64,000 bases of DNA from Branchiostoma floridae (lineage: Eukaryota > Chordata > Leptocardii > Amphioxiformes > Branchiostomatidae). Each line of letters begins with the position of its first letter. The stretch's first letter is position 1. This document shows positions 8,445-40,005 of the stretch, piece by piece. Below the pieces are notes generated by a model that saw only the letters and a list, made by a program, of their open reading frames with translations, was not told where the DNA came from and ran no database searches. A program made the translations under genes and the position numbers. The DNA lies in contig NC_049980.1 of the NCBI RefSeq assembly GCF_000003815.2, forward strand, positions 8,171,558 to 8,235,557, in the 5' to 3' direction.

Positions 8445-9193
8445 AGTAAAACCGGTAACGAGTAGGAAGAAGCAATTTGAGTACTAAAAATTACTTCCTT
8501 ACTTTTCTACAAGGCTCGAAAGCGAATGAAGTTTCGGCTTCGGGAAACCGCTAAGCGAACCCTTCGGTAACCGCAAAGTGATCCCATACGGTGGAACTTC
8601 CAGAATCTTCAATAAAATGTGCGTTACTTTTGTCACTTGAATGTCATAGTAAAACCGGTAACGAGTAGGAAGAAAGCAATTTGAGTACTAAAAATTACTT
8701 CCTTACTTTTCTACAAGGCTCGAAAGCGAATGAAGTTTCGCCTTGGGGAAACCACTAAGGGAACCCTTCGGTAACCGCAAAGTGACCCCATACGGTGGAA
8801 CTCCCAGAATCTTCAATAAAATGTGCGTTACTTTTGTCACTTGAATGTCATAGTAAAACCGGTAACGAGTAGGAAGAAAGCAATTTGAGTACTAAAAATT
8901 ACTTCCTTACTTTTCTACAAGGCTCGAAAGCGAATGAAGTTTCGGCTTCGGGAAACCGCTAAGCGAACCCTTCGGTAACCGCAAAGTGATCCCATACGGT
9001 GGAACTTCCAGAATCTTCAATAAAATGTACGTTAATTTTGTCACTTGACGTTCATTGTAAAACGCGTAAGGACTAGGCAAAAAGTAATTTGAGTACTGAA
9101 AATTACTTCCTTACTTTTCTACAAGGCTCGAAAGCGAATGAAGTTTCGCCTTCGGGAAACCACTAAACGAACTCTTCGGTAACCGCAAAGTGA

Positions 9194-9410
9194 GCATAGG
9201 AGGCTCCCCGATTTACTATGATTTACCTGCGATTGACGCAAATACGCTCTAATGACCTCATCGTACGATGCACTACGATCCTTGTGACCACGGCTTCATA
9301 TATTTAAACCATTGCTTCCGATTCTTCCCCGACTTACGACGTACTGCGCTTATGCCGCGCATAAAACCTCCATCGCAGTCAATCGTACGATTCTTGTGAC
9401 CGGGGCTTAA
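9194..9410. mobile_element. Insertion inside the satellite, remnant of a TTA-targeting element
   Basis: The satellite sequence breaks after GCAAAGTGA and resumes at GGTGGAACTTCCAG. The inserted sequence of about 217 bp ends ATCGTACGATTCTTGTGACCGGGGCTTAA. The reverse complement of that end resembles the start of the element at 14090 (AGCCCTGGTCACAA, GCGTACGATTCC). The left end is not a clean terminus, so the insert is truncated or rearranged. Confidence 0.55.
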
Positions 9411-9809
9411 GGTGGAACTTCCAGAATCTTAAAGAAAGTGTGCGTTACTTTTGACACTTGAATGTCATAGTAAAACCAGTAACGAGTAGGCAGAAAGCAA
9501 TTTGAGTACTAAAAATTACTTCCTTACTTTTCTACAAAGCTCGAAAGCGAATGAAGTTTCGCCTTGGGGAAACCGCTAAGCGAACCCTTCGGTAACCGCA
9601 AAGTGACCCCATACGGTGGAACTTCCAGAATCTTAAAGAAAGTGTGCGTTACTTTTGACACTTGAATTTTAAAGTAAAACCCGTAACGAGAAGGCAGAAA
9701 GCAACAGTGAATTTAGTTGTACGTGGCGCATTTTGCAGATGTTTAGCTACTTTCTCCTCCAAACTATTAGTACACATCTTGGCCGTCCTGTTGAATTGGG
9801 AATAGCACC

Positions 9810-11017: not shown

Positions 11018-13595
11018 TCATGAGTCCTTAAAGTCGTGCCTGTACTTGGCATGCCCTGTGTACCCGACTCTGTGCGAATGGATCAGGCACTGGATGACCC
11101 ACTCCGTGGACACCACGCGGACTCCCAGCTGCCCAGCCCTCTGCACAAGGGCCCCAGGACAGGAGGGGTCACTGACCACAAGGTCGCAGTCCAGGGGGGC
11201 ACCTGGGAGGTACAAGAACCAGTTGGAGTTACATGTTATGTAAAGACATCTACATCTACATGGCAGTACCCCCAAATGGCCCCGCATGGGGCATCGTAAG
11301 GGGGAGGGGGTTGAGGTCCCAGGTCAAGACTTGGTCATCATGAAGGTTCATCTTCATTGGCAAATTGTAGCTAACACACAGTTGACATTAAGCTGAACAA
11401 TGTAACCTAGGCATAAAATGTCTTTCATCATATCTTATTTGACCCTTCCCTCTTGGAGCTTCTGATGTACAAACAAAGGTTCAAACAAACAAACATATGC
11501 CACACATTCATTTGGTGTATTTTACATGCTGGAAAGAAATGGTAGTCATCAACAAAGGTGTATTGCTGAAGACAAAATGGACAACAACAGAATCTGATAC
11601 ACATTAAGATATTACTATCAATAATCAAAATAAAGATATTTGCAGTATTTTCCCAGGTACCATAAGTAAGTTATAAGGAAAATCACTTACTTTCTGCCTC
11701 CTCCTTGGACACCTTCTTAGCCATGACACATCCAGCAGCTACCAGAATGTCTGCCCACACGTCTCTGAAGTCCCTGCTTTCAGAGACCACCAGCACATCC
11801 ATGTTTTGGAAAATCCGACCTCGTGGGACCCTAGAGGAAGGGAAATAAATATTAAATTTCCTTATCGTAAATGCATCGCAAAACCAAGATCAGTTTTAAT
11901 GTATCTGCCTCTAAACACAGAAGTGTCAAGAGCAACATATGTGAGGATAAATTCATCCTTTGACATGCACACAGCAATGTAATTTGTACCCTTCACAGCT
12001 GATATTTATATCTTCAAGGTTAACATTATATCTTTGGTAAGGAAAAGCACATTCAAAGCACTTGTACCCACCTCACATGTTTAAAATGGACCGCATAACA
12101 TACAACTTATGTCTGTTACGCTTCTTACCATTCTATGGTGTTCCTGGTCTCCAGACTCCTCCCAGCTGGTAGAAGGTAAGCCTTATAATCCTGTAGACGT
12201 CCCTGTAGGAGGTTACAAACATTTCATTGTACATGCTGCATGTAACAAGGTTTTAGTCAGTATCTTACAAGTAACAAACTGTACATAAGCAACAACTTGC
12301 CATTGGGACCATTTTTTTTGTGGTCCCTTGGATAATTTTTTCCTTGACACAAGCATAAAGAATTCTGTCTAGTGTCAACATGTACCTTGTTTTCTTAGTC
12401 CCTTGGTCTTTTTTGGCAGTTTTGACCGTACATTGTACAATTATCAAGTCTGTAAGTTTCTATCAAGCTGAATTTTTAGTGCCCAGCAACAACCGGCAAA
12501 CATTTCTGTAAAACTGGGAAAATGGCTCTTTTTTAAGCAGCTCCTTGAAAGCTGCAAAATTTTCACAAATTGTTTTACTTCAAACACAAAGTTAATGAAG
12601 TAATTCCTCAATCAATGACTCTTGAAAAAAAAACCTCCTTTTGTGTGTTTTCAAGTGTCACTGGTTGAAGAATTAGTCCTATCAACTTACTCATACGTGA
12701 CTGATGAACCTCTTCAAAGATACCAAGTTGAGATACATGCACAACTAATCAACCTGTACCTGACTACAGCTGTCCCTGATCCACTGGTGAGACACACAGG
12801 GGATGCCGTGTGCCAGGGACAGGAAGTACTTCTTGGTACGGCAGAAGCTGTCCGCTATCAAGTAGAGATGGGTGGATTTCGACCTCTCCTGCATCCTCTT
12901 GAAGTCCTCGTAGACCTTCCCTCCACCCTGCTCGATCTGACGTTGGACATGACTCTTACTGTAGGGCAGTGTGCTCACTTCTGTAGACGATACACATCTC
13001 TGTTAGGGTCCATGCCACAGTAATACAATGTAACACTCTTGCAGTACACACTGAGCAATCAGTAGTGCTCTATCTTTTCTTATACCTCGGTTGCAATAAC
13101 GTTTGATATGGGTGTTCCAGACCCAGTAATAGCTTGGGTTCTCACATGGGATTCTACTACCAATATTATCACACAGGCTCCCACTTCGATTGCACCGTTT
13201 TAGATAATTCGTATACCAAATTTGGACAGTGGTATCTTTTTGGACAATAGACTTTCTCAACTTCTGAAGCACTTTGAGAAATGTGTTTTCTTGTGTAGGT
13301 GTATTCTGTATGAGTTTAAACATAAAGACAATGAAATGTAATCAGCTCACACAATCATCATCTTATCGCTGCTAACAATTCTACCAATGAATCAGTCATT
13401 TGCTGTGTTCCTTATCCAACGAGTGTATGTACATGTGCAAATGCAGTAAACACAGCCTACCCTCTTCACTGTCCTCACTGGACTGAGACTCGGCAGCGGC
13501 TGAGGCCCTCTCTGCCTTGTCTTTGGGTGCAGCCGTTAGGATGAAGGCACAGCCTCTGAACAACCTTCTGTTGGTGGGGAGGGGACCCAGTTGCT
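11018..13595 (-). other. TP53BP1: TP53BP1 tandem BRCT domains
   Basis: BRCT1: GPLPTNRRLFRGCAFILT (13461-13595), EQGGGKVYEDF, FCRTKKYFLSLAHGIPCVSH and WIRDSC (12760-12980), then YLLPAGRSLE (12129-12202). BRCT2: MDVLVVSESRDFRDVWADIL (11691-11830) and LDCDLVVSDPSCPGA, VVSTEWVIQCLI, HAKYRHDFKDS-stop (11018-11202). Order and spacing match human 53BP1, whose BRCTs bind gamma-H2AX and p53. The stop TGA is at 11018-11020. Confidence 0.93.
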
Positions 13596-16500
13596 CTGTA
13601 TGTGGAATATCAACTATTACAAACTTACATAGATATCACACCAGTATTTTAGTTGAACAAAAGCAAATCTATGTCAGTTGAAATGACAATGTAATACAAT
13701 GTATTCCATTCTTTTGCTTGGTACAGAGGAGAGGACAACTTTACTGCCAGTGAACGATATCACACAAGTATTCTAGTTGAACGAAAAGCAAATCTGTGTC
13801 AGTGAACAATGTCTATCAAGTATTCCAGTTGAACCAAAGCAACCCTGTGTCAGACTCACCTGCGTCTTCCTGGCTACGCAAGGAGCGACGGGCAGACTGG
13901 GTCTGGGGACTGTCCATTATACCTGCAGGCAGGGTGGGGACACCTGGAGGAAAAACATCTATCATAATTGTACATTCAACATACCAAATATAAAAGTATC
14001 ACTCAAGTGTTTTCAAGATATTTTCTCTATGACACATAGACTTTGAATACATGCTTCATATTACGTACTAAGCCACTCACAGCATGTTAAGCCCTGGTCA
14101 CAAAGCGCGTACGATTCCTTGCGATGGACTATTCCGCATATCGTACGATGAGCGCAGTACATCGCAAGAAAATCGTAAGCATCGCAAGCCATCGCAACGC
14201 ATCGGATGGTGTTCAAAATTTTTCCAGCGTCGCACGATTTTTCACTTGTGTCTCTTCTGTATAGCCGTCTGACCGCTTTTGTGCTTCTTTAACCAACAAA
14301 ATGTGGACATAGCTGTTTAATACCTTCCTATAATATCTTTAACTGTAAAAATAAATTCAAAAAGACCATGACAACAAGAGTATTACAAGCAAAAGTTCAA
14401 ATCAAGCGTGAGTACTGGTATGGTTATCTCGGTCTGCTTGCCGGCTCTACGTGTCAGGCTCTTTCGAAGATCGTCATGATCATGATGTGCTATCAACAAA
14501 AAGATGCCATCATACAAAAATCAAATGATAAGAATTATATCATATATATTTCCGACTCATAAAGCCTGCCTTTATGTTCGAGTTGTCCCCATGGTTATTA
14601 CGATTATGGTAAACTGACCCAAGACCGACGAGAGCTGAGATTTGATCTAATTATAAACTCACGTGCATGAAGCGATCAAACAATTTGTCTGCATCACCTG
14701 TGCGTGGCGCGCTGTTCTCTGGTTGCGACTGTGGCAGTTGCGACTGATATATTTCCCCTTTTCGTCAATATCGACAATATCAGGGAAAACTGAAACCATC
14801 ACAACATGCTAAAAAATCATAAATCTATAACCTCATCAGTAGACAAAAAATGCCGTAATGAACTCTGCTATGGGGGCAAATAAAATCTTACGACGATAGN
14901 NNNNNNNNNNNNNNNNNNNNNNNNNNNNNNNNNNNNNNNNNNNNNNNNNNNNNNNNNNNNNNNNNNNNNNNNNNNNNNNNNNNNNNNNNNNNNNNNNNNN
15001 NNNNNNNNNNNNNNNNNNNNNNNNNNNNNNNNNNNNNNNNNNNNNNNNNNNNNNNNNNNNNNNNNNNNNNNNNNNNNNNNNNNNNNNNNNNNNNNNNNNN
15101 NNNNNNNNNNNNNNNNNNNNNNNNNNNNNNNNNNNNNNNNNNNNNNNNNNNNNNNNNNNNNNNNNNNNNNNNNNNNNNNNNNNNNNNNNNNNNNNNNNNN
15201 NNNNNNNNNNNNNNNNNNNNNNNNNNNNNGTTGGGGGCACCTGGAGGAAAAACATCTATCATAATTGTACATTCAACATACCAAATATAAAAGTATCACT
15301 AAAGTGTTTTCAAGATATTTTCTCTATGACACATAGACTTTGAATACATGCTTCATATTACGTACTAAGCCACTCACAGCATGTTACCGACAAGGAACAT
15401 TAAGTTAACAAACCTACATTTCAGATTCTACTCTAGATTCTGATACTTAATTGCAGTGGTTTTCTTTTCAAGTTTTTTGCTGGGCTTGCACATTTCAACT
15501 ACAAAATTAATCAATAAAACAGTAAAACAGAGAAGGTATCTTTTTTTCTCCGGCAAAATGACAGCACTATGAATGTAATAATTTTTTATTGAATTTACAG
15601 TATCTGAATGGTTTGAGACAACATGTGAGGTAAGCATGATACATTCTGTGACTTTGACAAACTGACCTCTGACAGGGGAAGAAGTAGATGGTTTAGGTGT
15701 TTGTCCTGTCCCTGTGTCCATCTCCCCAGCCTCCTCCATAACCCTCCTCCTCTTAGTCTGTGGTCCCCTTGGGGTTGTTATGCTACTGCTTGTGCCTCCA
15801 GAGCTGTATTCTGTGTCCCTTGTTGCCCTTCCTATTAAAATCAGAATGAATGGTTGATACGCACACTGTACATCTTTGGAACACAAAAATGCTGGAGATG
15901 AGCCTATCAGTACGTAACACCAAAAAATTGAAAATATTTCAATCTATGTTTATTTATTATCATTGAAAATTACCTCTGTCTGGAGTTTTCTGTTCCTTAA
16001 CTGCTCCAGGTCTCTTCCTCTTCCCAGTCACGAGATTGTCTGGAAGGCAAAGTTTAGAAAAAGCACATTTAGGTGGAATCAAATAAATTTCTATAAATAA
16101 CTAGTTGTAGAAGTACGTAGTAATAGGAGTAGTAGTAGTAGTAGTAGTAGTATATAGATCTAACAAATCCCTGAAATTAATGTGGAACATTGCAGACACT
16201 TTTAATGCATATGACCTTTGCGTATGTCAAATGACAATCTCAGAAGTCATACATGTAGATTGATAATAAATTATGTCATCACAGCCACAGTTTTGTAATG
16301 AATGAAAATCATTGACTTGGAGTTGGATGTCTTTACAAACATAGGACAAAACAAATTGCTAGCTCACCCAAAGAAACAGAGGCAGACACTTCAGCAACTC
16401 GCATGACTTGAGCCCGGTACGCCGCTGCCTGTTCTGGGTTCAGGATCACATTGGCATGGGGTGCTCTGTGGGAAAGACACTTACTGCACTTTACAACTGA

Positions 16501-19500
16501 TCATAGGAATCCATTTTCACACTGTTTATAAACTAGGGATTCTTGCATCATCTTTTGTAGCAAATTGTACATCAGGCAAGTAAGGATGGACCTGACTGAT
16601 GGTTTCAGCAGACTATTGTCCTCTCTTACCTGACAGTGGATCCATCATTGAATTCCACCAGGTACTCTTCTTCTCCAGTCTCTCCATTGTGATGGTAACC
16701 TCGAATAATACCTGAATAGATAAAAAAAAAGTAACTTCAACTGTGCCAGAAATTGTAGTCCTCACCTCAAGAACCACATTCTACCTACTGTCTTTTCCGC
16801 ACACTACACATGTTTACACAATCATGTAACGTTATTGGAAAACAACTTGACACAGACCTTTGTTAAAGATGCAGTGCTCAAAATACTTTTTTCCGGCAGG
16901 TTGCCACCTGTCAAAAGCAAGGTTGCGCCATCAACATTTCAGGTTGCCCCACTTTCGTCAAATTAGCTACTAATCCGTTATCCTTTCTTTCAGTTACACA
17001 TAACTACTTAATATGTTTTACCTTATCAAGAAATAGATACAAAGGCTTAATATGCACATAGGTGGGGGAAAAGCAATGTTCCAACTGCAAAATGTCAGGT
17101 TTACCTGGGTTTAGAATTAAGTTGCACCAAGCAAATGTGCTTGCAGTTGCAAGTGTGTAAGTGGGTATTTCAAGCACTGAGATGTGACTACACAGAGTCT
17201 TAGACATAGACTACCATATCCCCACCTGGCGCGTAGACACAGTCCTGCACATCCTCTACACTAGCCAGGACAGCAGTGTTAACGGGCAGGCGGGACACCA
17301 CCATCATGTTCCTGGCTGCGATCTCCCTCGGACGGACGGTAGTCTCATCCTCATCCTCAAACCTGACAAGATATCTGGACACAATAGGGAAAGGATTGAT
17401 GGATTATGGATTAGTCCATTCCAGGTTAAAGCAAAGATGATCTTAAGCTTATCATGACTTTACCAGAATCACTTAAATACATGTACAAAAGATCTACATC
17501 AGAGCTTTACAACCATCCCTGAACAGAGACAGTGGGTGCCATAGACTTCCTGCAACCTATGATCCACTGCTTACTGAGTCACATGTTCTGCATAACGTGA
17601 CGTCACGACAACAGTGAGTTGTGCATTCCTTGACAAAGACTGGTGCTGCATGTCCAGTCAAAAATTTGGGTAAGTCCAATTTTTGTGTTGGATGTTCAAC
17701 TAGTTCCATAATAACTTCTACCAACACAGACGAACTTTCAAGTTAAAAAGATTGATCTTACACCAACTTTCCTAAAGATATTTTAAAGTAAAAAGTCAAT
17801 GGAGGAAGCACGTAATACCTGTCATTTTTCAAAGTCTTGAGAATGACACCAGGGTACCAGTGCTTGTCACTCACAAGCAGGGCCATCACGCGAGCACCCT
17901 CCCTCGGCTCGGAGCTGCCGCTGTCCGAGGATACAGTTTCTAGAAACAGGTTGAGACATGCGACACAATTCATACAGCATTTGTCACCAGTGCTACTTGT
18001 CAAACATCCTAAACATGCAGCAAAAATTGTGGCAGATGAATGAAATGAGAATATATCTTATTTAGATATTGGATAGGACAATGGTAAAAGTCAAAAACAT
18101 TGATGAAGGTTATATGTCCAGGTAATACGATATGCCAAAGAGCAGTTACTCAAACAACTGGATATGATTATAGGATTTTGACAGTTTCAGACAACTATCC
18201 ATTGTCTCTTGTCAGTGACACTGGAGAGATCTGTCAGAGAGAGTTTTTATATCTTAGGTGTGAATTGATATGCAAAAGAGATCTAGTTGAAGAATAGGTT
18301 TATCCTAACTATGAAGTAATGTGCAAAAAGGGGAGGAAGACATTAATTCATAACATATCAATTCATACCTAGGATAAACTTGTTCTTGGCAGAGGAAACA
18401 GTTTGACAAAACCCCTCACCTCTACTCGTATCCTCTTGTGGTTTCTCACTTCTGCCAGACAGCCTCTGCTGCACCCCCTGAAAGGGAATCTCGGGAGTTC
18501 CTGCCCTCTCCTCAGAACTGTCACTGCTCTGCTCGTCACTCTCATGCCCTCTAGACGACCTTGACGACCTTGCTGCTGAGCTACTCCTGCTTTCCTTTCG
18601 ACCTTGTGGTTTTTTAGAAAGTTTTTCTGTAGACAATGACCTGCTACCTGCAGAAGCTCCACCTCTTCTACCTCTTCTTCTAGGACTTCCCCTTGTTCTT
18701 CCACTGGGTGTCCTACCTCTTGGAGTCTTCTTCGGAGATGGTTGTACGGCTGCTCCTTCTTCTACTATCTCCTCTTCTGCAGTTTTGTCACTGTCCTTAC
18801 CAGAGGGGCCAGCTGTTCTAGTTCTGCTGTGTCTGCCTGTCTCTTCTTCTGTGCTGTCAGATGTCTTCTGTACAGCTGAGGCTGATGCTGTTGCCTGACC
18901 TGATCTTAACGCTCTCCTAGGAGAGTCAGTTTCCCTCCCGGGCTCTTCTGGACTCACTGTTTCTGTCTGTCTCGTACGACTACTCTTTCTTCTTCTAGAC
19001 TGTTGTTCTTTCTCCCCCTTTTCATCTCCTTCTGGTCTACTCCCTCCTTCACCTTTACCCTTGTCCTTTGCATCTTTGCCTCCAGCAGCCTCTGTCTGTG
19101 TTCCAGTTTCACTGACCTCCAACCTTTGACTCCCACTTGTGACCTTTGACTGTTGACCCAGAAGCTGACTGCCTATCCCTGACCTCCTTCTCCTGGGTGA
19201 CCCCACAGGTTTGGTGAAGCCCTCCTGGTCCTTGTCCCCTCCCCCTGTCCCAGGGGAGGAGCTGGAGGACTTGGACTGGCTGGAGGAGGTCCTCTCTAGG
19301 CTGGCCAGGCTAGGACCAGAACTATAGGGTAGGAAAGAATAAAGTCTCATGAGTAACAGTGTAGTCTGTGTGTTTGTTTCAATACTCATGTAAACTTATT
19401 ATAAAGCCACACTGTAGTTATAGTACAGTGATAAGATTCCTTTCAACACAAACGTATACAATGGGAAGAAAGTGAAGCATTGTACAATGATAACTTGCAA

Positions 19501-20179: not shown

Positions 20180-23100
20180 CACACACATACAAAATACACC
20201 ACATATAAATGAAACCATAAATGTAAGTCATTGCATTGTGCTGATAGTGTGTTTGGCCAAGAATTCAAAGGTACTGTTTCGAACCAGATGTTGTGTCCTT
20301 GGCACTTAAAGTTTCCTCTTTTCTTTCAAGTGAAGATGAGGACTTAGCTTCAGTTATTCCCTCTGACAGGACATTAAACAGAGATTCTGTTTTTGAGAAG
20401 AGACAAACTTTGAGGAGGTTAAAGAACTCACAAGACTTATCAAAAAGAATAGCAGTCCTTTTCAGTGTGAATGGATCATACAGGTCTCGAGGACTTGGTA
20501 TGATAAAAATCATCAATAAGACAATGGGCACTAGAAAGGCCGACATTTGCTTGAGAGCACATGCAGCATATTTCAGCCCTCTCCCTCCCCATGCAACAAT
20601 AGACTATTCCAAAATCACTTTTGTTTAAAAGTCACTTCCACTAATGACACTTAATGACACCCAAAAATGAATCTTACAAAATTCCTAGTGCAAGAATGGA
20701 CTCTTCCAGTGCACCCCATGTGAATTTGCACAATAGACCAGTCCAGAAATACTCCCATTGAAAACATGGCCAAGGTTGAACTAAGCAAAATAAGGCTTCC
20801 ACTTCCACTAAAAATGGAATATTGAATCATCACCTTTCTAAAACTAAATTTGAAAACATCCCCATGCAAGAATGGACTCTTCTTGCGATGCCCATATGTA
20901 AAGTGGTGCAGTCCAAAAATACATCCGCTAAAATTGGACTTGGACATAATCACCAAAGTCCCAAAAATGGATTTTAAAAGGATGTAAGGATGGACTCTTC
21001 CAGCACAACCTATGTAAAATTGCAAAGTTGACCAGTCAAAAAATAACCACACTGAAACACTTTGACATATCAAATCACCAAAGTCCATAAACAATTTTTT
21101 TTAAATGCCCCCCTCCATGCAAGAATGGACTCTTCCAGTACACCCCATGTAAAATTGCAAAATAGTCCAGTTCAAAAATACTCCCACTGAGAGACATTAT
21201 ATAATCAACAGTCCAAAGATGAATTTAAAAAATATGTACCCCCTCCGTGCCAGAATGGACTCATCCAGATAACACCGGGCTCAGATTGGCTGCCAATCCC
21301 CTTCGGAATGTTGACTCTGGGTACGTGATTGGTTGCCTCTTTAATCAAGTTATTAGTATATATAGACATGTGCATATGCTGTCTTCAGGTGGGAGAGGTC
21401 AACGACCTGGCCAGTGGAGAATTACCAAAAAAGTCCCCAAATATATCATTTTGAAGTGGTTTATGCCAGAAATTATACATGGGTCATTTGAATGAATATC
21501 TAGTGCACCTATTTACCAAAATGTAGGTCATTTGGTTACAAGACCAGGGAACAGGAGCCAAAAGCTTACGTTTTTGGTCAAAGAATGTCCCAAAAATTCC
21601 AAATTTAAGCATTTTGTTGTACCGTATGCCAAAAGTGTAAATGCATTCATATGCGCGTATGTAGACAGCACTCCTATACCAAATTTCAGGTCATTTGGTT
21701 GTAAAATGGGGGTATAGGAGCCAAAAATGTCATTTTTGGGGCAAAAAATGGCAAAAAATGCCAAAATTAAGCATTTTGCTCTACCATATGCCAAAATTGT
21801 TTTTGGAACCTTGTGGGCATATGATCAAGGCACCTCTGTAGCAAATTTCAGGTCATTCGGCTGTAATACCAGGGTACAGGGGGGCAAAATGTACATAAAA
21901 ATTGCAAAAAGCAGGAATAAAATCATTTTAAAGGAAGATATGAAAAAAATTAGAAAAAAGCACCTGGGTATTGACCCACTCTACCCTTGTGCCAAATCTC
22001 AAGTAATTCGGTCCAGGAACGACGGAGTTGAATCGATTTGAAGATTTGACAGGAGAAAGAAAGAAACATTACGAATACAATATATTTCACCATACCTATG
22101 GTATGGCTGAAATATAATTAAAGGAAAGACAAGAAATCACTCGCTCAACAAAATACACCACATGATTATATAATGGAACCGTGAAAACATAAGGTATAAA
22201 GCTCACCTCTATCACTTGGTAGTCCACAATTTTCTGACCTCGTTTGATCTTCTCTGTGATAACTCTCTTGACAATTGTTTCAGTGATAGTTGTGATGGTA
22301 GTCTCACGGACATACTGGGGTGGGCTCTGTGGAAAAAAACTTGTACATGTACTTGAATTTTCTAAAAATCATATTCTGAACATGGCTGTCTCTAGGACCC
22401 ATACCTCAGTCCTGGGAAGGAAAGTTGCTTGCTGGGACAGAAAAAATATTAAACTGTCCTTCAAAATCATCTGAACTCCATCACATAATACATTGTATTG
22501 ATGAAAATAAGATTGATAAAAATAAGATTGACGGATCTCACAACGAAAATCAGCATGGGCTCTCAAACAATGGATGGCCCCCTTGGTGGGACAGAAACAA
22601 ATTAAAGCTCACGACGACTCTGATTCAGGCTGAAACTTGTAACAAATAAAAGTCTTTGTTTTCGTTACTTACCTCCTCTTCCCCTCCTGCAGATTCAGTG
22701 TCATTGTCCTCGTCAATTTTCACCCTCTTCCGGGGTGGCTGCCCCTCCTCCCCATCTCCATCTCCTGGGATCCTCTCACCATCCCCTCCCTCCTCCTCCT
22801 TTTCCTCACCCCCATCTCCACCAGTGGGCTGTCCCTCCTCTCTACTTGTACTTTGGGCACTAGGGGTTGAACCACGTCCTGATGGGGAGGTTCCCCCACC
22901 ATGTGCTCTGAGTTTGGCAGATTTGCGCTGTTTATCTTTCGTTTTTGTCTTCACCGTTGTTGTAGGTGATGGTTGCGTATTTGCCTGTGTACAAAGAGAA
23001 TCAAGTCATTATCAGAATAGATTTTTTTGTAACATTCCATGACAGCAGCAAAAAAAATTTAAATAGACTCAAGAGGAATCAAGAGGAGTCTGATGCTGTT

Positions 23101-26100: not shown

Positions 26101-29100
26101 AGCACGAATGAGCCGGAATGCCGTCCGAATGAATTTTTTTTTCTATTCGTGGCAATTCCTCGCAATTCGTACTGTATTCTAAACATTTGTACTGCGTTCC
26201 AGATATTCGTCCCCGTTCTTTTGGCTGGCTCGAAAGTTTTTGACATGTCAAAACCTGTCGAGGTGCATTCGAAGTGTAGAAATATCGAATGGCATTCCAA
26301 ATGGATTCTAAGTGGATTCTAACTAGTCTAACTGCAGTCTGACCGCATTCTGTGGCATTCCAACATTATTCGAAACGTTTTTATCTCATTCGAAGGAGAA
26401 CCGAAAAGGCAAGCCACTTCGAATCCTGCCCGAATGTGGCCAAAAGAATATCTCGAATGCAGTAAGAATTTCTAGAATACACTACGAATTCCCAGGAATA
26501 GAAAAGAATTTTCATTCTGACGGCATTCTGGCTCATTCTTTCTCGTATGAAGGGGATATCAAGTCCATTTGGAACCCCCGCTCGGAATGGCCCCGAATGT
26601 GTTACGAATTTTGCAAATACTTCATTCCGACTGGTTCGGCTTGATTCCTGCTAATTCGATTTCCGTGTGAAGGCCCTATTACAGATGCAGTCGCAAAAGT
26701 ATTTACATATAAAACAGATACTCACTATCAACAATACAGTCCAAAACATAAAGGAGCACATATCATTATCTACTTCTTAAGAATGCAGTCCTAACTTGAC
26801 AGAGTCTATATCCCATATCATTAGGTAATGTTAATGTTGAAGGCCATTGGTTTAACTGCTTCCTTAGATTAGCATTTGGTAATGTATTTTGTCACAACAA
26901 CCATGCAAAAATGTTTCCATTGAAATAGCTTGAATATAAACCTTACTTTGTAGCTGAAAGAGAGGCGGCTGATTGTCCTCCTGTGTATGGTCAGACTGAC
27001 TCTCCAGCACAGCTCCCATCCTCATCTGTAGTGGAGCCCCTTCCCCAGGCTGTCCACCCCTGTTGGCTGCAGTGGTTAGTCCCTGCCCACCACTGGTACC
27101 TGGGTCAGCAAAGACACTACCATTCCCTTCTGGGGTGGTGTCAGCACTAGTGACTGCACTGGTCGGGGTTGTGTCAGTGGGAGACTCTGTGTAGTCAGGG
27201 ACAGGAGTGCTGTGTCTGGGCAGGCGGGGTCGCGTGGCCTTCATGAGGGGAGGGGTGGTGGCAATTGGTCGGAACAGCCCTCCATCTTTGGGGAGGGCAA
27301 GGTGAAATGGAACTGCAAGGAAGAAACAAAGTATCATCAAGTCTTCTTTATGAACAAAGCAAAAGGAAGAAGTTTTGTATATACTACACTATGAAAACAG
27401 TTTTATAGCAATACAGTGAATTGTTAAAGTTTAGAGCAAAGCTGGAAAGCAAAGTACATTACAATCATCTCCATATACATGTACATGTAACGTTACCTGA
27501 GGACTCTGAGTTGTTGGCCTGTGCTGATGGTGTAGCCCTGCTCTCTCTTGGTGTCTCCTCTTTTTCAGTATCACAAAGAACAACTTCAACAGAGGAATCT
27601 TCTTTGCAAGAAAAAAAGCAACATTTAGAGATCATCTAATTGGCACAACTTAATTCAAGTTACTAGTTATTTCCTGTATTTATACTCAATTCACCTATAC
27701 AAGTGACATTTCATCAGCTTGAAAGTCCGTCTGTATTGGTAGAAGTCATTCTACAATGTACATCTAAGTTTAGCCTGTGTTCATACAATCTCTTGTTAGC
27801 TGGGGTTAATGACCTTCCCCCCAATCCCCCCCGTCGGGCTGGCCGCTAGTCAGGCTAGATCAAAGTTGTACTGAAATTTCCAACTCAAAAATTGGACTTA
27901 CCAAAATTTTGATTGCTCATTTCTTGAAGAGACTAGAGTTGGTCAGTCAAAAATTCAATATTTGTGTTGGAAACAACAGTTTGAATTTGATCCAGATATT
28001 TACAAACCTTCCCTGTATTGACTTCTCTGAAAAGTGATGAAGAAAAAGCAAATTACCAGTATAGCCTACATGTACATGATAAAAAAATCCCTACCCTTTT
28101 CTGCAACTGAAATATCAGCTTCCTCTTCTACATCTGGACCGTTGCCTGCTTCTTCATCTTTTTGGGAACTAGTGTCTGTGACACCTACATGTACGTCTTC
28201 TACTTCTTCCTTGGAATGTTCGGTAGGAGCTGGTCCCACTGGCTGTTTAGTAACTTGACCTTGAGGTAGGAAGAGCAGCTGACTTGGTGCTAACTCTGGC
28301 TCCGTCGACTGGTCTTCTAAATCCTCAACCATTTCTCTCACCCTACTTTGCACGTTTTGAGACTGGGAACCATCTAAAGATGGGGTAAAATGAAGTGCCC
28401 AATTGTCTTGCACATCATCAGAGCCTTCTTCTTGTTCATCAGTGATATCTTCCCTTTGCAAAGACCTGCCTTCACCCTCTTGTACTGCAATGTCCTCTGT
28501 TCTGACTTGCTTTTCATCATCTTCAGACTTTCTGACATCTTCTTTTTCTTGGTCCGCATCCTCTTCAATCATTTCAACCTGGCTATAGGATGTCTGTGGG
28601 TCATCTTTGCTGGTACTCGCCAATTCCCAAAGTGAAACCTTTTTCTTCTGAGCAACGTCTCCTCCAGACGTCTGCAAGACATCTTCAGGATTTTCTACTG
28701 ATTGCACCCTGACCGTCACACTTTCAGGTTTGCCTTGTGTTTGAACGTCCTCTCGCATTTCCACTGACACCCCGATTGCTCCACTCCCTTGGCTCATCTC
28801 TAGAAGCTGCTCAATGGCAGCTTCCAGCAAACAGTTTTGTGCCTTGTAAACGCTGATTAGTATGTCTTCATCCAGACTAGGAAACATACCCTTCAAGAAG
28901 TCTAATGTTTGTTTCAACTCCTGTCTTTCACTCTTCCTACCAGTCTGACTACTTCCAGAGGATGATGATGAAGATGCAGCCTTATTGTCTTGAAGTCCCT
29001 CTGCTTTGGTTTGTTCTGTAGATACAGATGGACGACCTTTGTTGCTCACTTCCTGGGAGATGCTTTCATCATGTTCTGATGATAGTTCTGTATCTGGGAG

Positions 29101-32100
29101 CTGCAGGTGAAGGGAGGGAGGCCTGCTGGTAGAGTCCTTGGTCATGTCCGCAGACTTGGTCCCACTTGGTCCCTCACCATCAGGACCTGGTGCAAGCAGA
29201 TCCTAGACCAAATGATGAAGCAGATATATGACAAGATGACCAGAAGCCCGATGCCAGTTTTTTAGAGAGAAAGAAAGGCTCAAACAATAAACTGTAGCAT
29301 CTGTCATGTATTCAATCTGCCAAAGTAGAGGACATTTTCAGAGACATTTGAGATGAAATACAATAGTGCAAATCTTAACTGTATTGATTACTAGAGGAGA
29401 AAGCATACCTGAGACCATTGTGGTTCACTGGGCTGCCATGGATGATCTACAAGTTCCTGCTGAGACTGGGCAGAATTGTGTGATGATCCTTGTAATGATG
29501 GAACAGGAGGGTCTTCTGCAACTTCCAAAGACTTATCTACACAACGAAACATCATTTTTCTTATCATGACATTGTGAATCATAGAGGTTTGCTATGCCTT
29601 GTCCTAAAACTTTGCTACAGACTTATCAATCCATCTACAAATAACATTATCTTACCATTATTTTAATATATAATTGGTAAACCTGATTTCAATTAGATTA
29701 TCTAAAGTGTCATGTTCACCTTGTTCCTCTGTTTCCCCTGTTGGTGATGATGGGATGATGTGTGGGGTGTGGCCGTACGCCTCTGGTGATGGGGAGATCA
29801 CAGTCTCAGAACCTCTGGAATATGGAGAACACATTTTGTCTGTTCAGGTAAATCATGTACAACAGGTGGAAATTGTCAAGTTTTGCTACTTCTGCTTGTC
29901 TTTTGGTTCTATCATGTCAAGAGGTTGGTTTCTACAATGATGTTCAATCACTGCACAGCAGGTACAGTACATTGTAAAGTTTGTCTGTTTAGGTACATCA
30001 TGTACATGTAACAACAGGTAGAAATTGTTCAACAGTATCGAAATCAATTATTTTCATGCCATTGACATCTAACGTCCTACAAAACTTGAGTTCTTGTCTC
30101 ATGACTCTACCATGTCAAGAGGTTGGTTTCTACATACAATGATCTACAACCACTGCACAGCAAGTACAATACATAGTAAAGTCACATCCATACCCCTCTG
30201 ATGACAGACTGGTGTCCTGTACCAACATGGGTTCTCCTGAGAGCTGCAGACAGCCCAGGTTCTCAGCTGGGGTGGATAGGACATGCTCCTCTTGGGGTCC
30301 TGAAGGAAATGGAAAAAAGTATAACATCTATTTAAAAAGTACATTACATAGATAGATTGACTTTGTTTGAGAGCTCATCAAGAAGGCATCACTTCAAGCT
30401 GAACACAACTGGACTACCCTTATCTTTGGTATACACCGTGAGCGCCCCCAAGCAGGTACTGCAGGAACTGCAGAAGTAGACATGTTGATGTGAGGCTCTA
30501 TAGTGATGGCATTTGTTATCATCCATGTGTTAGATATTCCAACGCTACCATGCAAATCATACCTTTCCATTAAATCTGAACATGAATTTTTGGCATATAA
30601 GAATCTTACTAATACACAACTAGTGATCCTGGGGAGACCAGCCAATCAGACCTTTGTGATGTTGATTCCACACACGTTTTAACAGATTTTCTAATTGTCT
30701 ATAACATGTATTATCAACAATACAAAAGAAAGATGAAGTGACGTACTCTGGACATCTTCCATGAACATATCCTGCCATTCCCTTATTGGTCAATTTCCTA
30801 ATTAGCAGGCTACCATTGGTCGAACTGCTACTTATGATGGACAGCCTTTTGTTTGCCACATTGAACTCGTTTTAGATCTATCATGGCCGCCGCGTGAGAA
30901 AGGTGTACAGTGATGGCATTTGTTATCATCCATGTGTTAGATATTCCAACGCTACCATGCAAATCATACCTTTCCATTAAATCTGAACANNNNNNNNNNN
31001 NNNNNNNNNNNNNNNNNNNNNNNNNNNNNNNNNNNNNNNNNNNNNNNNNNNNNNNNNNNNNNNNNNNNNNNNNNNNNNNNNNNNNNNNNNNNNNNNNNNN
31101 NNNNNNNNNNNNNNNNNNNNNNNNNNNNNNNNNNNNNNNNNNNNNNNNNNNNNNNNNNNNNNNNNNNNNNNNNNNNNNNNNNNNNNNNNNNNNNNNNNNN
31201 NNNNNNNNNNNNNNNNNNNNNNNNNNNNNNNNNNNNNNNNNNNNNNNNNNNNNNNNNNNNNNNNNNNNNNNNNNNNNNNNNNNNNNNNNNNNNNNNNNNN
31301 NNNNNNNNNNNNNNNNNNNNNNNNNNNNNNNNNNNNNNNNNNNNNNNNNNNNNNNNNNNNNNNNNNNNNNNNNNNNNNNNNNNNNNNNNNNNNNNNNNNN
31401 NNNNNNNNNNNNNNNNNNNNNNNNNNNNNNNNNNNNNNNNNNNNNNNNNNNNNNNNNNNNNNNNNNNNNNNNNNNNNNNNNNNNNNNNNNGTGACGTCCA
31501 CGTAGCCTCGTCGGCTTATCTGTCAAAAAGTGTGCCAAAAAACACAAGGATATGGTGTGCCAGTGCGCCAACATCTGCACATATGCCACCAAGAGGTGTA
31601 AATTTGTTGGGTTTTTTTGCAGGGTGCGAAGCCATTATCTTAACAACATATTTTTCCAGACAGTGGCCTATACATGCTGGAAGCAAATCATAGCTCAGGG
31701 TACCATACCGTAGCAAAACAAGCAATATCCGATGATCAAACCTGTACTTTGTGTTTTTCCTTTATTATATCAAATACTACAGGAATTTCTGTGGTAAACC
31801 AAGTTATCATCATCATCATCACCAGTCCCATAGCTTTTAACCAATACCAAAATTCCTCAAGTCTTACCTTTGCCGCTGAAAGCTCTTCCTCACCCAGCCG
31901 TCTCCTTGCCTTCATTGGGGACTCCTTGGCCTGGCCTGCCTTCCTTGGAGATTTGTGTGGGGACTTCTTTGGTGACTTTGTTTTGCCCTTTAATGGAGAC
32001 ACCTTGATACCTGCGGCTTGTGCTTCACTGAGGTGCTTAATATCTTTTCTTGGAGATTTGATTGGAGTCTTTCTGGGAGACTTTTTTAAGGGTGTTTCCG

Positions 32101-35100: not shown

Positions 35101-36562
35101 GCTACCAGAGGGCCCAGCACCTTGAGGACCTGATAAAAGAAATAGTAAGATACAAAAATTTCATGCAACGCCAGACAAACAAAATACAAAGTTTAACCTG
35201 TACTCAAAATGGCCACACTATGTGGAAAGACATTGTCTGTTCTTGGTAAGGACAATATGGAGTTTGGCATTAAGGAAAACCATTAAAGAGTGAGCATCGG
35301 ATATTCTAACTTTGGATGGCTATGCAAATCTAAGACCTCAGCAAATGCTTGGTAGCCTGAGTACCATCCTCTGTAGTGACCACGTGGTTAGCAAGCGAAA
35401 GTCGTGAGCCAGCGGTCACTTCGGAGGATGGTACTCAGGCTAAATGCTTGGGGCTTTGCAATATTTCTCCATAGTTATACAAGTGGAAGTTGTCAGGTAT
35501 GAAAATTGCTGATCATCTGACATCTGATCATTCAGTTCTATGGCCTACATTTGCTAAATCTATAACACATAAGTTTAGTTCCCTGAACATGATCGTATGC
35601 AGATGACCAAATTATAAAAATATAACTAACTGACCTGATGCTCCATGATGCTGGCCACCTCCCTGTTGTCCTGGTCCACCAGTTGCCATGGTGATGTGGC
35701 ATTTGTGTCCATTTGCCATCATCTCTACTTCCTGCATTTCACATGTGTTGGAAATCAAAATGGTACAAGATTTGTTACCAGCTACTTGATTAAATGTGTT
35801 TCTTCCAGTGTCTAGTTAGCTTTGCAATTTTATGTACGTGTAGTTTGATCAACCTCCAGGTTTTCATTCGTTTGGTAATGTTTTATGTACATTCCTATGG
35901 TAATTAAGACACTTCAATGTGAAAATACAAATGGTGACTATAATCATATAATGATAGAGCTAAAAAAAACAAATATCCTCTTCTACAATAATGGGTGGTC
36001 ATTACATGCATCATGAAATGATACCCTTTCTGTATAACTATTAACAGTTGTTATATAACTTACAAAGCTGCATGATCATGCTATATATATATATAAGGAT
36101 GTTCCTGTAGCTCAGATGGTAGCTGCTTCACATACAGATGGGCTCCAGGTTCTATCGGACTAAAACTGGGTCCGGAAAGGGTTACCAATCTAGTTGGAGT
36201 TGCGAGCACCATCTTTCAGAAGGGACATAAAAATTATGGGGGGCCGTTCGAGGATCCAGAGTTGCCTTTCAACAGCATGTTACAATATACAACTGCCAAA
36301 TTACTCTGAGCGAGATGGGTACCTACGTATACTGGATGTAATGATACAACAAGGTGAATAACTATATCAAACGTATACGGACCATGATAGGACTGGTGCT
36401 GCTGTCCCTCAGAGCTCCCAACCTGGCCAACATCTTGTGTCTGAAGATGGTGTCCTCCCCATCACTGCAGTCTACCTCAGCCTGGGTCTCCTGCTGTGAG
36501 TTCTCCACCAGGAAGCACGGCGTGTCATCTCTCTGACTCAAGTCTGGCTGACTCAAGTCCAT
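11018..36562 (-). CDS. TP53BP1: 53BP1 (TP53-binding protein 1) orthologue, 32 coding exons placed, one missing
   Basis: Chromatin reader that steers double-strand-break repair. Exons in transcript order: 36383-36562 (ATG), 35635-35731, 35022-35129, 34447-34570, 33890-34011, 33286-33420, 31868-32208, [missing exon], 30194-30299, 29720-29814, 29409-29536, 28095-29202, 27497-27601, 26947-27312, 25704-25860, 24233-24908, 23534-23668, 22673-22984, 22207-22326, 19830-20017, 18420-19321, 17819-17939, 17226-17374, 16630-16711, 16368-16465, 15974-16039, 15667-15831, 13860-13943, 13461-13595, 12760-12980, 12129-12202, 11691-11830, 11018-11202. All junctions keep phase except 31868|30299, which needs an exon of length 1 mod 3. 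The protein is about 2340 aa plus that exon (human 1972). N-terminus, STP-rich region, oligomerisation segment, GAR, tandem Tudor, UDR/NLS and two BRCTs are all recognisable. Confidence 0.93.
13933..14089. repeat. Duplicated segment, copy 1 (likely allelic)
   Basis: This segment, from the end of exon 13860-13943 into its intron, is repeated almost exactly at 15230-15386 (offset 1297; one change, CACTCAAG to CACTAAAG, plus two in the exon end). Between the copies lie a TE fragment and an N run, as expected if two haplotypes were laid end to end. Confidence 0.85.
14090..14280 (+). mobile_element. TTA-targeting transposon end (PIF/Harbinger-like), right end lost in gap
   Basis: Copy 1 of the duplicated intron ends CATGTTA and then reads AGCCCTGGTCACAAAGCGCG, rich in CGTACGAT and ATCGCA words. 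Copy 2 at 15386 continues CATGTTACCGACAAGG without the element, so 15386 preserves the empty site. The same terminus in reverse ends the insertion at 9410. The body may continue to 14899 and into the N run. Confidence 0.6.
14900..15229. other. Assembly gap (N) at a haplotype junction
   Basis: 330 N. The sequence right of the gap restarts a few bases inside a duplicate of exon 13860-13943, so the gap may hide a second copy of that exon. Confidence 0.95.
15230..15386. repeat. Duplicated segment, copy 2 with empty TE site
   Basis: Near-identical to 13933-14089. It carries the uninterrupted target CATGTTACCGAC. Confidence 0.85.
15974..16465 (-). other. TP53BP1: TP53BP1 UDR (H2AK15ub-reading motif) and basic cluster
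   Basis: Exons 16368-16465 and 15974-16039 join to give ASVSLDNLVTGKRKRPGAV, against human ADISLDNLVEGKRKRRSN. The core S-L-D-N-L-V-x-G-K-R-K-R is kept; this ubiquitination-dependent recruitment motif contacts H2AK15ub and the nucleosome acidic patch in vertebrates. A second basic cluster (QTKRRRV) in exon 15667-15831 is a probable nuclear localisation signal. Confidence 0.87.
16128..16151. repeat. (AGT)n microsatellite
   Basis: Eight consecutive AGT/TAG triplets in a TP53BP1 intron. Confidence 0.9.
16630..17939 (-). other. TP53BP1: TP53BP1 tandem Tudor domains
   Basis: Tudor 1: GARVMALLVSDKHWYPGVIL (exon 17819-17939) plus YLVRFEDEDETTV (exon 17226-17374). Tudor 2: GIIRGYHHNGETGEEEYLVE (exon 16630-16711) running into 16368-16465. 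Ungapped comparison with human residues 1488-1527 gives W1495 to Leu, Y1500 to His, F1501 to Trp, Y1502 kept, F1519 kept, D1521 kept and Y1523 to Asp. The fold appears intact, but the methyl-lysine cage is incomplete by the human standard. Confidence 0.88.
17496..17690. repeat. Dispersed repeat related to one arm of the foldback at 61747-62075
   Basis: CTTTACAACCATCCCTGAAC, AGACTTCCTGCAACCTATGA and CCTTGACAAAGACTGG match 61927-62070 in the same orientation. A related AAATTGGACTTACCAAAATTTT segment lies at about 27884-27990 in the opposite orientation. Confidence 0.7.
18420..19321 (-). other. TP53BP1: TP53BP1 Ser/Arg-rich exon with GAR-like motif
   Basis: Long low-complexity exon with many S-P and R-R-x-S sites. 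PRGRTPSGRTRG and SPRRRGRRGGAS correspond to the glycine-arginine-rich (GAR) methylation motif of human 53BP1 (RGRGRRGRP), and GTPEIPFQGV to human SPEIPFQAA. A TQT motif (SETGTQTEAA) could bind dynein light chain LC8. Two donors keep the same phase: 18420 (GAG|GTGAGG) and 18369 (CTAG|GTATGA); alternative use would change the protein by 17 residues. Confidence 0.85.
20142..20190. repeat. (CA)n microsatellite
   Basis: About 49 bases of CA repeats with a few CTCA interruptions, in a TP53BP1 intron. Confidence 0.95.
20575..21265. repeat. Diverged tandem array, five units marked by GCAAGAATGGACTCTTCCAG
   Basis: Starting words at about 20690, 20869, 20983, 21118 and 21249 introduce units of roughly 115-180 bp. 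Shared parts are the CACCCCATGTAAAATTGCA-like block, the ATAGACCAGTCCAAAAATAC block and a final CCAAAGTCCAWAAATGRATTTTAAAA block. Units are 70-85 per cent alike by eye. No coding sense. Confidence 0.8.
21504..22113. repeat. Tandem-structured repeat, 150-165 bp subunits, MITE or LINE tail
   Basis: The word CAAATTTCAGGTCATTTGGT recurs with variation at about 21517, 21680, 21840 and 21991. The last unit ends GTTGAATCGATTTGAAGATT and a terminal hairpin CACCATACCTATGGTATGG with TGAAATATAA. The layout, internal subrepeats followed by a distinct end, suggests a transposon tail. Confidence 0.7.
24974..25286. mobile_element. MITE with CAGGGTTGGAC termini (hAT-like)
   Basis: Begins CAGGGTTGGACAAGTTT and ends GGCTAGTCCAACCCTG, the reverse complement of the start with small changes. 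The body repeats CTTGCCCRAA/CACTTGCCC several times. CAGGG termini are usual in hAT elements. The flanking 8-mers are only partly alike, so the duplication is decayed. In a TP53BP1 intron. Confidence 0.65.
26000..26083. repeat. Left half of a dispersed repeat split by the 595-bp insertion
   Basis: AGGGCAATTCTGACT, ACGCTGCAGTATAGGTGTTG and TTGCTTA parallel 61195-61307 (AGGGCAATTCTGACT, ACTGCAGCATAGGTGTTG, CTGCTTACAG). Sequence resumes after the insertion at 26682 with CAGATGCAG. Confidence 0.75.
26084..26678. mobile_element. 595-bp TTA-targeting element with long internal inverted repeats
   Basis: Outer termini are AGCCCCCTTCACACGAG and CCGTGTGAAGGCCCTA, flanked by TTA at 26081-26083 and 26679-26681. 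Inside, CCCCTTCACACGAG...GAATGAGCCGGAATGCCGTC has its reverse complement at about 26518-26560 (GACGGCATTCTGGCTCATTC...GTATGAAGGGG). The body is dense in GAATNC/GCATTC words and non-coding. The host repeat around it occurs uninterrupted at 61160-61310, which confirms the TTA target. Confidence 0.8.
26947..27312 (-). other. TP53BP1: TP53BP1 conserved LPK...RHSTP exon
   Basis: VPFHLALPKDGG, TTPPLMKATRP and RHSTPVPDYTESPTDTT align with human 53BP1 FHFTLPKEGD, ATPPLIGHLKLEPK and RHSTPIGISNYPESTIATS. This anchors the order of the central exons and confirms that the CUE exon lies N-terminal of it, as part of the same gene. Confidence 0.9.
28792..28929 (-). other. TP53BP1: CUE domain (ubiquitin-binding) inside TP53BP1
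   Basis: Within the large exon 28095-29202, 46 codons read ERQELKQTLDFLKGMFPSLD, EDILISVYKAQNCLLEAAIE and QLLEMS. This has the CUE signature: M-F-P at the end of helix 1, an acidic turn, a central helix ending in a small/polar turn (KAQNC), then the AAIE-x-LL di-leucine helix. M-F-P and L-L are the residues that contact the ubiquitin Ile44 patch in Vps9/Cue2-type domains. Reading frame and splice phases on both sides (phase 0 in, phase 1 out) tie it to the 53BP1 transcript. The flanking sequence is Ser-rich or acidic and disordered, so the domain stands out as a folded island. Confidence 0.85.
30502..30582. repeat. Duplicated 81-bp segment, copy 1 (likely allelic)
   Basis: Identical in length and nearly identical in sequence to 30909-30989. 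Copy 1 is preceded by GGCTCTAT; copy 2 by the end of a MITE (AAGGTG-TA) and followed by an N run. The best explanation is two haplotypes joined in series. Confidence 0.85.
30771..30905. mobile_element. MITE family B, partial copy (TA target)
   Basis: Ends GATCTATCATGGCCGCCGCG and TGAGAAAGGTG followed by TA. The inner part (ACCATTGGTCGAACTGCTAC, GGACAGCCTTTTGTTTGCCA) is the reverse complement of 46862-46965 in the complete copy at 46849-47242. The other terminus is not present where expected. Confidence 0.75.
30909..30989. repeat. Duplicated 81-bp segment, copy 2
   Basis: See 30502-30582. It abuts the N run at 30990. Confidence 0.85.
30990..31490. other. Assembly gap (N), probable site of a missing TP53BP1 exon
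   Basis: 501 N between exons 31868-32208 (ends phase 0) and 30194-30299 (needs one preceding base). In human 53BP1 the sequence just before the LQLSG block carries the STQEDLFD motif, which I do not find elsewhere in the window. Confidence 0.9.
31868..32208 (-). other. TP53BP1: TP53BP1 exon with SPKK/SPRK motif cluster
   Basis: After a Ser-rich stretch the exon encodes KKSPRKTPIKSPRK, then KVSPLKGKTKSPKKSPHK, SPRKAGQAKESPMKARRR. At least seven [ST]-P-x-[KR] units lie within about 65 residues. Such units are minimal CDK sites and, in histone H1 and HMG-type tails, bind the DNA minor groove. The exon ends phase 0 at AAG followed by GTAAGA. Confidence 0.85.
32294..32393. mobile_element. Small hairpin MITE family C, copy 1
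   Basis: TAGCCTGACTACCATCCTCC ... GGAGGATGGTACTCGAGCTA, arms about 20-25 bp and diverged, total 100 bp. In a TP53BP1 intron. Confidence 0.7.
33538..33878 (+). mobile_element. CR1-like LINE, 3'-end fragment
   Basis: Matches the last part of the LINE at 1429-2597: CTCGTACCATC, GAACTTGAGCCTGGTGTGG, TCTCTCCCAGTTCAAAACTG, the 3' UTR and the AGTACAGAAAGAAGAAGAA tail. Strongly 5'-truncated, as usual for LINE copies. It sits in a TP53BP1 intron, antisense to the gene, 11 bp from the donor of exon 33890-34011. Confidence 0.88.
34101..34200. mobile_element. Small hairpin MITE family C, copy 2 (left arm decayed)
   Basis: The right arm AGTCACTATAGAGGATGGTACTCAGGCT is clear; the left arm AGTACCATTTTCCGTACTGACC is diverged. 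The inner GGTTAGCAAGTGAAACTACG matches copy 3. Confidence 0.65.
34447..35129 (-). other. TP53BP1: TP53BP1 glycine-rich and acidic linker exons
   Basis: Exons 35022-35129 and 34447-34570 encode a Gly-rich stretch (EQGGGGGGAGGGRG) that passes directly into an acidic one (DGGDDDDNDNEEEGAGDD). Phases 1 to 1 and 1 to 2 match. I know of no equivalent in human 53BP1. It is low complexity with no predicted fold. Confidence 0.75.
34893..34992. other. Scaffolding gap (exactly 100 N)
   Basis: A fixed-length run of unknown real size, 29 bp from the donor of exon 35022-35129. Confidence 0.99.
35353..35442. mobile_element. Small hairpin MITE family C, copy 3 (best preserved)
   Basis: A 90-bp unit with 29-bp arms matching at 27 of 29 positions: TAGCCTGAGTACCATCCTCT at the left and AGGATGGTACTCAGGCTA at the right, with a loop containing CACGTGGTTAGCAAGCGAAA. 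Confidence 0.8.
36101..36355 (+). mobile_element. tRNA-derived SINE
   Basis: The head GTTCCTGTAGCTCAGATGGTA has a tRNA-like A box and CCAGGTTCTATCGG a B box at tRNA-like spacing. It is followed by a body containing CACCATCTTTCAGAAGGGAC, a block I associate with invertebrate tRNA-derived SINEs. There is no tRNA cloverleaf 3' half, so it is not a functional tRNA gene. It ends about 28 bp from the donor of the first TP53BP1 coding exon. Confidence 0.7.
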
Positions 36563-36573
36563 GTTCACACAGA
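36383..36573 (-). other. TP53BP1: TP53BP1 first coding exon: S/T-Q-rich N-terminus
   Basis: Acceptor CTTCTAG, then TCTGTGTGAAC and ATG at 36560-36562. The protein starts MDLSQPDLSQRDDTPCFLVE, which parallels human 53BP1 (SQQDTPCLIIEDSQPESQ). S-Q at residues 4, 9 and 22 and T-Q at 26 match the ATM-site cluster that recruits PTIP and RIF1 in mammals. Donor after ATCATG, phase 0. Confidence 0.88.
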
Positions 36574-37520
36574 CTAGAAGTAGTTAAAGGCACCTGATTA
36601 TAAGCCATGCATACTTCTGTTATTTTCAAAAATATCATCCATACTCCAAACCTAAAATTCCTAGCAAGCTGTACTGTATGTATGATCCCGTGAATAATGG
36701 TTCGTTCCAAACGAAATATCGTTACGATCACGCGTATAATACCTTCATGTAATCGTGTAGCATGTCCACGTCCACCGGCTCCAGCGCGTCTGTTGTTTTG
36801 ACGCGTGTTACGACGCAGGTAAAAGGATTAAATCATCGGCAACTCAAACAACAAGACTTCCCGCCACAAACATGCCTGGGCATGTCTGAAAGTTGAAAGG
36901 TCATTGGTTGTTTCTACTTCCTGGGTATAAAAATATCTATATTCCAATGCATCTTTACTNNNNNNNNNNNNNNNNNNNNNNNNNNNNNNNNNNNNNNNNN
37001 NNNNNNNNNNNNNNNNNNNNNNNNNNNNNNNNNNNNNNNNNNNNNNNNNNNNNNNNNNNTGCTTTAAGTGATAGGATGAGGTGGATTGTGTCGTGTCGTC
37101 GGTTCGGTATTGCAATATCGTCCTCAGATGACTGCCACAGTGTGTAGATTTGCACACGAAATCCACGTTTGACTGGGAAAATGTAACTGTTACGAAAGTT
37201 ACGGATCAGAATTTTTGGTTTATAAAAGTACATGTTGATCGTCTCGCGCTACCGTGCTTTGTTTTGAGTCTGAATAGTGACAAATTATCAAGTTATGAAT
37301 TATTTGTTGCAACATGATGAGGGAGGGGGGTTGGAACTTGTATGACTACGTAGTACATATGATGAGATACAGATAATCTATTCGGAACAGTTTCTGTTGC
37401 CTTGTGTGCCATGCAGGTGTACCTATGAATCAGAAGCTTGTCTTATGTTGTGATCATGTTTATAATTATACCCTGATTATGTTAATAACTTATCTTTGTC
37501 ATAATTATTACTATATCTAG
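36574..37520. promoter_or_regulatory. Divergent TP53BP1 / RPS6 promoter region
   Basis: About 0.95 kb separates the first TP53BP1 coding exon (minus) from RPS6 exon 2 (+), including 100 N. A possible non-coding TP53BP1 first exon ends at a donor ATGAAG|GTATTA (exon edge 36743, minus strand). RPS6 exon 1, needed to supply Met-Lys, is not visible and is probably in the N run. Both genes therefore appear to start within a few hundred bases of each other. No TATA box was assigned. Confidence 0.55.
36960..37059. other. Scaffolding gap (exactly 100 N), probable site of RPS6 exon 1
   Basis: A fixed-length N run in the divergent promoter. A search of 37060-37520 found no ATGAAG followed by GT on the plus strand, which RPS6 exon 1 should contain. 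Confidence 0.95.

Positions 37521-40005
<2,485 letters not shown>

Follow-up and report, generated by a model that had tools for sequence, protein, structure and literature searches.

A CUE-type domain in the 53BP1 gene of the lancelet Branchiostoma floridae: a candidate second ubiquitin-binding module

Whether a break is repaired by end joining or by recombination depends in part on the protein 53BP1, and the UDR is regarded as the basis of its ubiquitin reading. The locus considered here raises the question whether a lancelet 53BP1 carries a further module of this kind, an earlier note on the same DNA having claimed a CUE-type ubiquitin-binding domain inside one of its exons. The window (the whole stretch of 64,000 nucleotides that was analysed) holds 53BP1 on the minus strand, and an RPS6 gene adjoins it on the opposite strand at about 37948-39470 (plus). 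Vertebrate eS6 is nearly invariant; the lancelet protein shares 62 of 85 and 63 of 85 residues with two PDB eS6 sequences, both presumably vertebrate, a divergence that sets this genome apart from vertebrates. Elsewhere in the window a 313-codon open frame at 1447-2388 (plus) reads by eye as the reverse transcriptase of a LINE-type element, the start of which lies in another frame, and 204-base units form a tandem array at 6807-9704, which an N gap divides into two blocks.

The exons that identify the gene are the following.
17819..17939, minus strand: tandem Tudor part 1 (joined-exon 53BP1 match)
17226..17374, minus strand: tandem Tudor part 2 (joined-exon 53BP1 match)
16630..16711, minus strand: tandem Tudor part 3 (joined-exon 53BP1 match)
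16368..16465, minus strand: last part of the Tudor pair, running into the UDR (..ASVSL; joined-exon 53BP1 match)
15974..16039, minus strand: UDR core DNLVTGKRKR (joined-exon 53BP1 match)
12760..12980, minus strand: BRCT 1 exon (PF00533, E 3.6e-10 in a slightly longer frame; one genome match)
11018..11202, minus strand: BRCT 2, last coding exon with the stop (PF18428, E 2.2e-18)

Against PDB sequences the joined BRCT exons, in a join that omits one linking exon which was not found, match human 53BP1 (1kzy) at E 7.6e-51 with 101 of 221 aligned residues identical, and the next match outside 53BP1, the DNA repair protein Rhp9, follows at 3.8e-6. Single Tudor exons stayed below the Pfam cut-offs; joined and extended into the UDR they match 53BP1 (1ssf) at E 5.5e-9, and every one of the 12 sequences found with the joined Tudor exons at E<=0.01 is a 53BP1. 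The first segment of the tandem Tudor shares 13 of 40 residues with human 53BP1, and in the best Tudor-UDR alignment the UDR core reads SLDNLVTGKRKR in the lancelet against SLDNLVEGKRKR, with SLDNLVxGKRKR common to both. A genome-wide search with the BRCT exon at E<=0.01 returned one place, the 53BP1 gene of the window. By its sequence the gene is thus a 53BP1 ortholog, of which one copy was found. The methyl-lysine cage of the Tudor is partly changed (17819-17939 and 17226-17374, minus strand): of five cage residues, two are replaced, W1495 by L and Y1523 by D (human numbering), and the other three, Y1502, F1519 and D1521, are retained. A frame at 22099-22368 resembles the oligomerisation domain (OD) by eye, and tblastn matches only the segment after it (human residues 1272-1329).

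The N-terminal half was placed by tblastn with human 53BP1, by splice consensus and by phase.
36365..36583 (ends not fixed), minus strand: open frame whose MDLSQPDLSQRDDTPCFLVENSQQE resembles the 53BP1 N-terminus (weak match to human 11-59, E 0.058)
30194..30299, minus strand: 53BP1 exon containing the LQLSG block (64% identity to human 333-354, E 0.099; phase)
29720..29814, minus strand: 53BP1 exon with the block SPSPEAYGHTPHIIPSSPTGE (human 356-389, E 1.2e-4; AG/GT and phase)
29409..29536, minus strand: 53BP1 exon preceding the CUE exon (AG/GT and phase)
28095..29202, minus strand: CUE exon (1108 nt, 369 codons, enters in phase 0, leaves 1 base; nine SQ/TQ sites)
28792..28911, minus strand: CUE domain (Pfam envelope, exon residues 98-137; MFP and LL intact)
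27497..27601, minus strand: 53BP1 exon downstream of the CUE exon (AG/GT and phase)
26947..27312, minus strand: 53BP1 exon containing the PFHxxLPK and RHSTP blocks (match to human 888-978, E 2.2e-6; AG/GT and phase)

The 53BP1 matches are collinear on the minus strand, running from human 11-59 at 36.5 kb through 333-354 at 30.3 kb, 356-389 at 29.8 kb and 888-978 at 27.3 kb to 1272-1329 at 20.0 kb (E 1.4e-5), which places the CUE exon opposite roughly human residues 390-888. Further alignments in the search, at E 0.015 to 9.5, were of low complexity or lay off this line. From its composition the long N-terminal half of the lancelet protein looks largely disordered. The six exons between 30299 and 26947 are each preceded by AG and followed by GT and translate as one frame, so that the earlier view of the CUE exon as framed by phase-consistent 53BP1 exons holds in the genomic sequence, the junctions 29202|29409 and 27601|28095 fitting in both splice consensus and phase. 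The CUE exon would be hard to skip, because its removal in silico shifts the frame and brings in stops.

Upstream, an exact 81-base direct repeat (30502-30582 and 30909-30989) lies inside 53BP1, and its second copy abuts an N gap at 30990-31490. With this gap the N-terminal part of the 53BP1 model is incomplete, and some of its exons may be lost there; the repeat may mark a point where the assembly joined two haplotypes. The repeat and gap (30502-31490) also speak for a reading in which the CUE exon is nested or mis-predicted and lies outside the 53BP1 mRNA, or in which the domain is a decaying remnant. We regard that as very improbable: the exon offers 369 open codons, consensus splice sites and intact motif residues, and the frame from 29409 to 27601 is kept with it and broken without it.

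The domain itself is recognised by Pfam. When the translated exon (370 aa as supplied, from a minus-strand frame at 29202-28066 that is open for 378 codons) is searched with hmmscan, PF02845 (CUE) scores 32.5 bits at E 6.8e-8, above its gathering score of 21.1 bits, and it is the sole Pfam family listed at E<=10. Its span of 28792-28911 falls within the 28792-28929 noted earlier. None of nine composition-preserving shuffles of the CUE segment gave a CUE match in the Pfam search; one of the nine matched an unrelated DUF at E 0.036. Both ubiquitin-contact motifs are kept, the MFP in GMFPSLD and the di-leucine in EQLLEM, as seen in an alignment alongside seven further CUE segments, among them L005 with VLP in place of MFP. 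The segment forms a hydrophobic island of the exon, 38% of its residues being I, L, M, F, V, W, Y or C versus 12% and 21% in the flanks, which are rich in serine, acidic and poor in hydrophobics. A single-sequence AlphaFold2 model of 28774-28938 reached a pLDDT of 85.2 and a pTM of 0.51; in the single-sequence models helices 2 and 3 of the expected three-helix bundle run together, and no structural match reached significance, the four CUE entries among the matches included. Taken with the Tudor, UDR and BRCT matches and the common reading frame, the Pfam result bears out the claim of the earlier note that a CUE domain with M-F-P and di-leucine lies within 53BP1. The CUE-bearing 53BP1 is real, specific and found in one copy in the genome.

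Against PDB sequences (phmmer, E<=1) the CUE exon has six distinct matches, of which four are CUE domains, namely CUEDC1 (1.7e-7; PDB 2dhy, the closest solved structure by sequence), Tollip (2.7e-4) and Vps9 (2.9e-4 and 0.0096); the remaining two are dehydrogenase sequences at E 0.15. The Vps9 CUE is thus among the closest solved domains, and Vps9 is known for coupled monoubiquitylation. By analogy, the lancelet domain might act in cis, in the monoubiquitylation or turnover of 53BP1 itself and not in the reading of chromatin. A passage in PMC4206297, in which the stability of mammalian 53BP1 is under the control of RNF8 and RNF168, lends this some colour; the argument is purely one of analogy, and we consider such a role quite improbable.

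A CUE domain appears to set the lancelet protein apart from its human counterpart. Both have tandem BRCT, tandem Tudor, a UDR core and collinear N-terminal blocks; human 53BP1 appears to be without a CUE and has W1495 and Y1523 in its Tudor cage where the lancelet has L and D. Profile and sequence searches of human 53BP1 (residues 1-1692 and 1-948) gave no significant CUE match, in agreement with the earlier statement that none was known in the mammalian protein. Lancelet 53BP1 thus carries a CUE that human 53BP1 appears to lack and, its UDR core being conserved too, combines two candidate ubiquitin modules. No report of a CUE in 53BP1 was found in the open-access papers searched, and databases of the InterPro type may already label it automatically. 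The domain arrangement is new for this known repair protein, and its function is predicted.

In the 513-Mb genome PF02845 is found at E<=0.001 in at least five places (16 candidates scored), the 53BP1 CUE among them. Two of the four others read as CUEDC1-like and Tollip-like when their translations are compared by eye with the PDB CUE rows, another is AMFR (PDB match 1.4e-16), and the fourth, as a guess, might be SMARCAD1, its sole PDB match being Tollip at 0.92. The CUEDC1-like gene provides the single other match to the 53BP1 CUE at E<=1 (E 0.0015, 33% over 48 residues); CUEDC1 is a different protein, whereas the lancelet CUE lies amid the coding sequence of a 53BP1 exon. A parallel in setting is SMARCAD1, which acts with BRCA1/BARD1 in resection according to a passage of PMC9464978. 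Like lancelet 53BP1 it has a CUE in a chromatin and break-repair protein; it differs in being a remodelling ATPase and in its tandem pair of CUE domains, of which CUE1 binds KAP1.

What, then, would the domain do? On the nucleosome the UDR recognises H2AK15ub specifically. In CUE domains the MFP and di-leucine fill the I44 pocket of ubiquitin, through contacts that are described as often weak and small in part of PMC6688830. With a nucleosome-specific UDR and a weak CUE-ubiquitin contact, the CUE would thus add avidity or catch adjacent ubiquitin, and on balance we think it probable that it serves as a second, low-specificity ubiquitin contact of this kind. Close to a double-strand break it would contact ubiquitin at the Ile44 patch, engaging more ubiquitins per 53BP1 molecule, an effect that oligomerisation would multiply; the human OD is a trimer (in a passage of PMC12187134). 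Alternatively, it would catch ubiquitin chains or ubiquitylated repair factors beside the nucleosome held by the UDR. The partly changed Tudor cage may weaken the reading of methyl-lysine, which would make an extra contact more useful.

The same face could in principle serve another partner, the CUE being a protein docking site of 53BP1 comparable to SMARCAD1 CUE1 on the KAP1 coiled coil. Passages of PMC6688830 show that MFP-type and LL motifs do not restrict a canonical CUE to ubiquitin: SMARCAD1 CUE1 has a higher affinity for KAP1 than for monoubiquitin, via the same face, and the authors hold that the ligands of other CUE proteins are unpredictable from sequence. The 53BP1 CUE, however, retains both MFP and LL, and in the KAP1 case, as related in that source, changing the LL leucines one at a time made no appreciable difference, so that an intact LL leans weakly towards ubiquitin. 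We judge a non-ubiquitin partner unlikely and retain ubiquitin as the probable ligand.

The genome also offers candidates for the enzyme that would write such a ubiquitin mark and for its substrate. A human RNF168 query found one clear relative:
G000:C12:8928008-8928298, minus strand: RNF168 relative, locus L029 (human RNF168 query)
It matches at E 2.1e-29 with 54% identity over query residues 8-103, and its frame runs on beyond the RING and resembles RNF168 by eye; the next RING matches lie at 2.3e-7 and weaker (at least 125 matches; 150 of 292 candidates scored). A K-x-K-S-R tail, the counterpart of human K13/K15, is kept in all 14 of the H2A frames picked by RAG[LI]QFP (from 13 of the 20 loci fetched, L008-L027, a sample of 140 histone matches). 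An RNF168 relative and H2A of the K13/K15 type thus make an H2AK15-ubiquitin pathway plausible: a candidate writer, its putative substrate and the UDR are all in this genome. A remark in PMC11143218 has RNF8, RNF168, the UDR and the H2A K15ub sequence "seemingly" confined to vertebrates, on which the lancelet RNF168 relative, K13/K15 H2A and UDR bear. Other passages describe the UDR as conserved among metazoan 53BP1 orthologs (PMC9464978) and place the origin of RNF168 in Chordata (PMC3969565), and the present results side with these two and not with the vertebrate-only remark.

As for history, it is a tentative and rather doubtful suggestion that the 53BP1 of the ancestral chordate, or of an older ancestor, was a multivalent CUE and UDR ubiquitin reader and that vertebrates lost the CUE, the alternative being a gain of the domain in the lancelet lineage. 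They would have shed it once nucleosome reading by Tudor and UDR sufficed; the ancestral protein perhaps relied less on H4K20 methylation, a thought prompted by the partly eroded Tudor cage of the lancelet protein. The CUE in a non-vertebrate ortholog would provide a natural test of whether ubiquitin avidity can complement or replace Tudor-UDR reading, and lancelet 53BP1 may read chromatin damage signals in one more way than human 53BP1.
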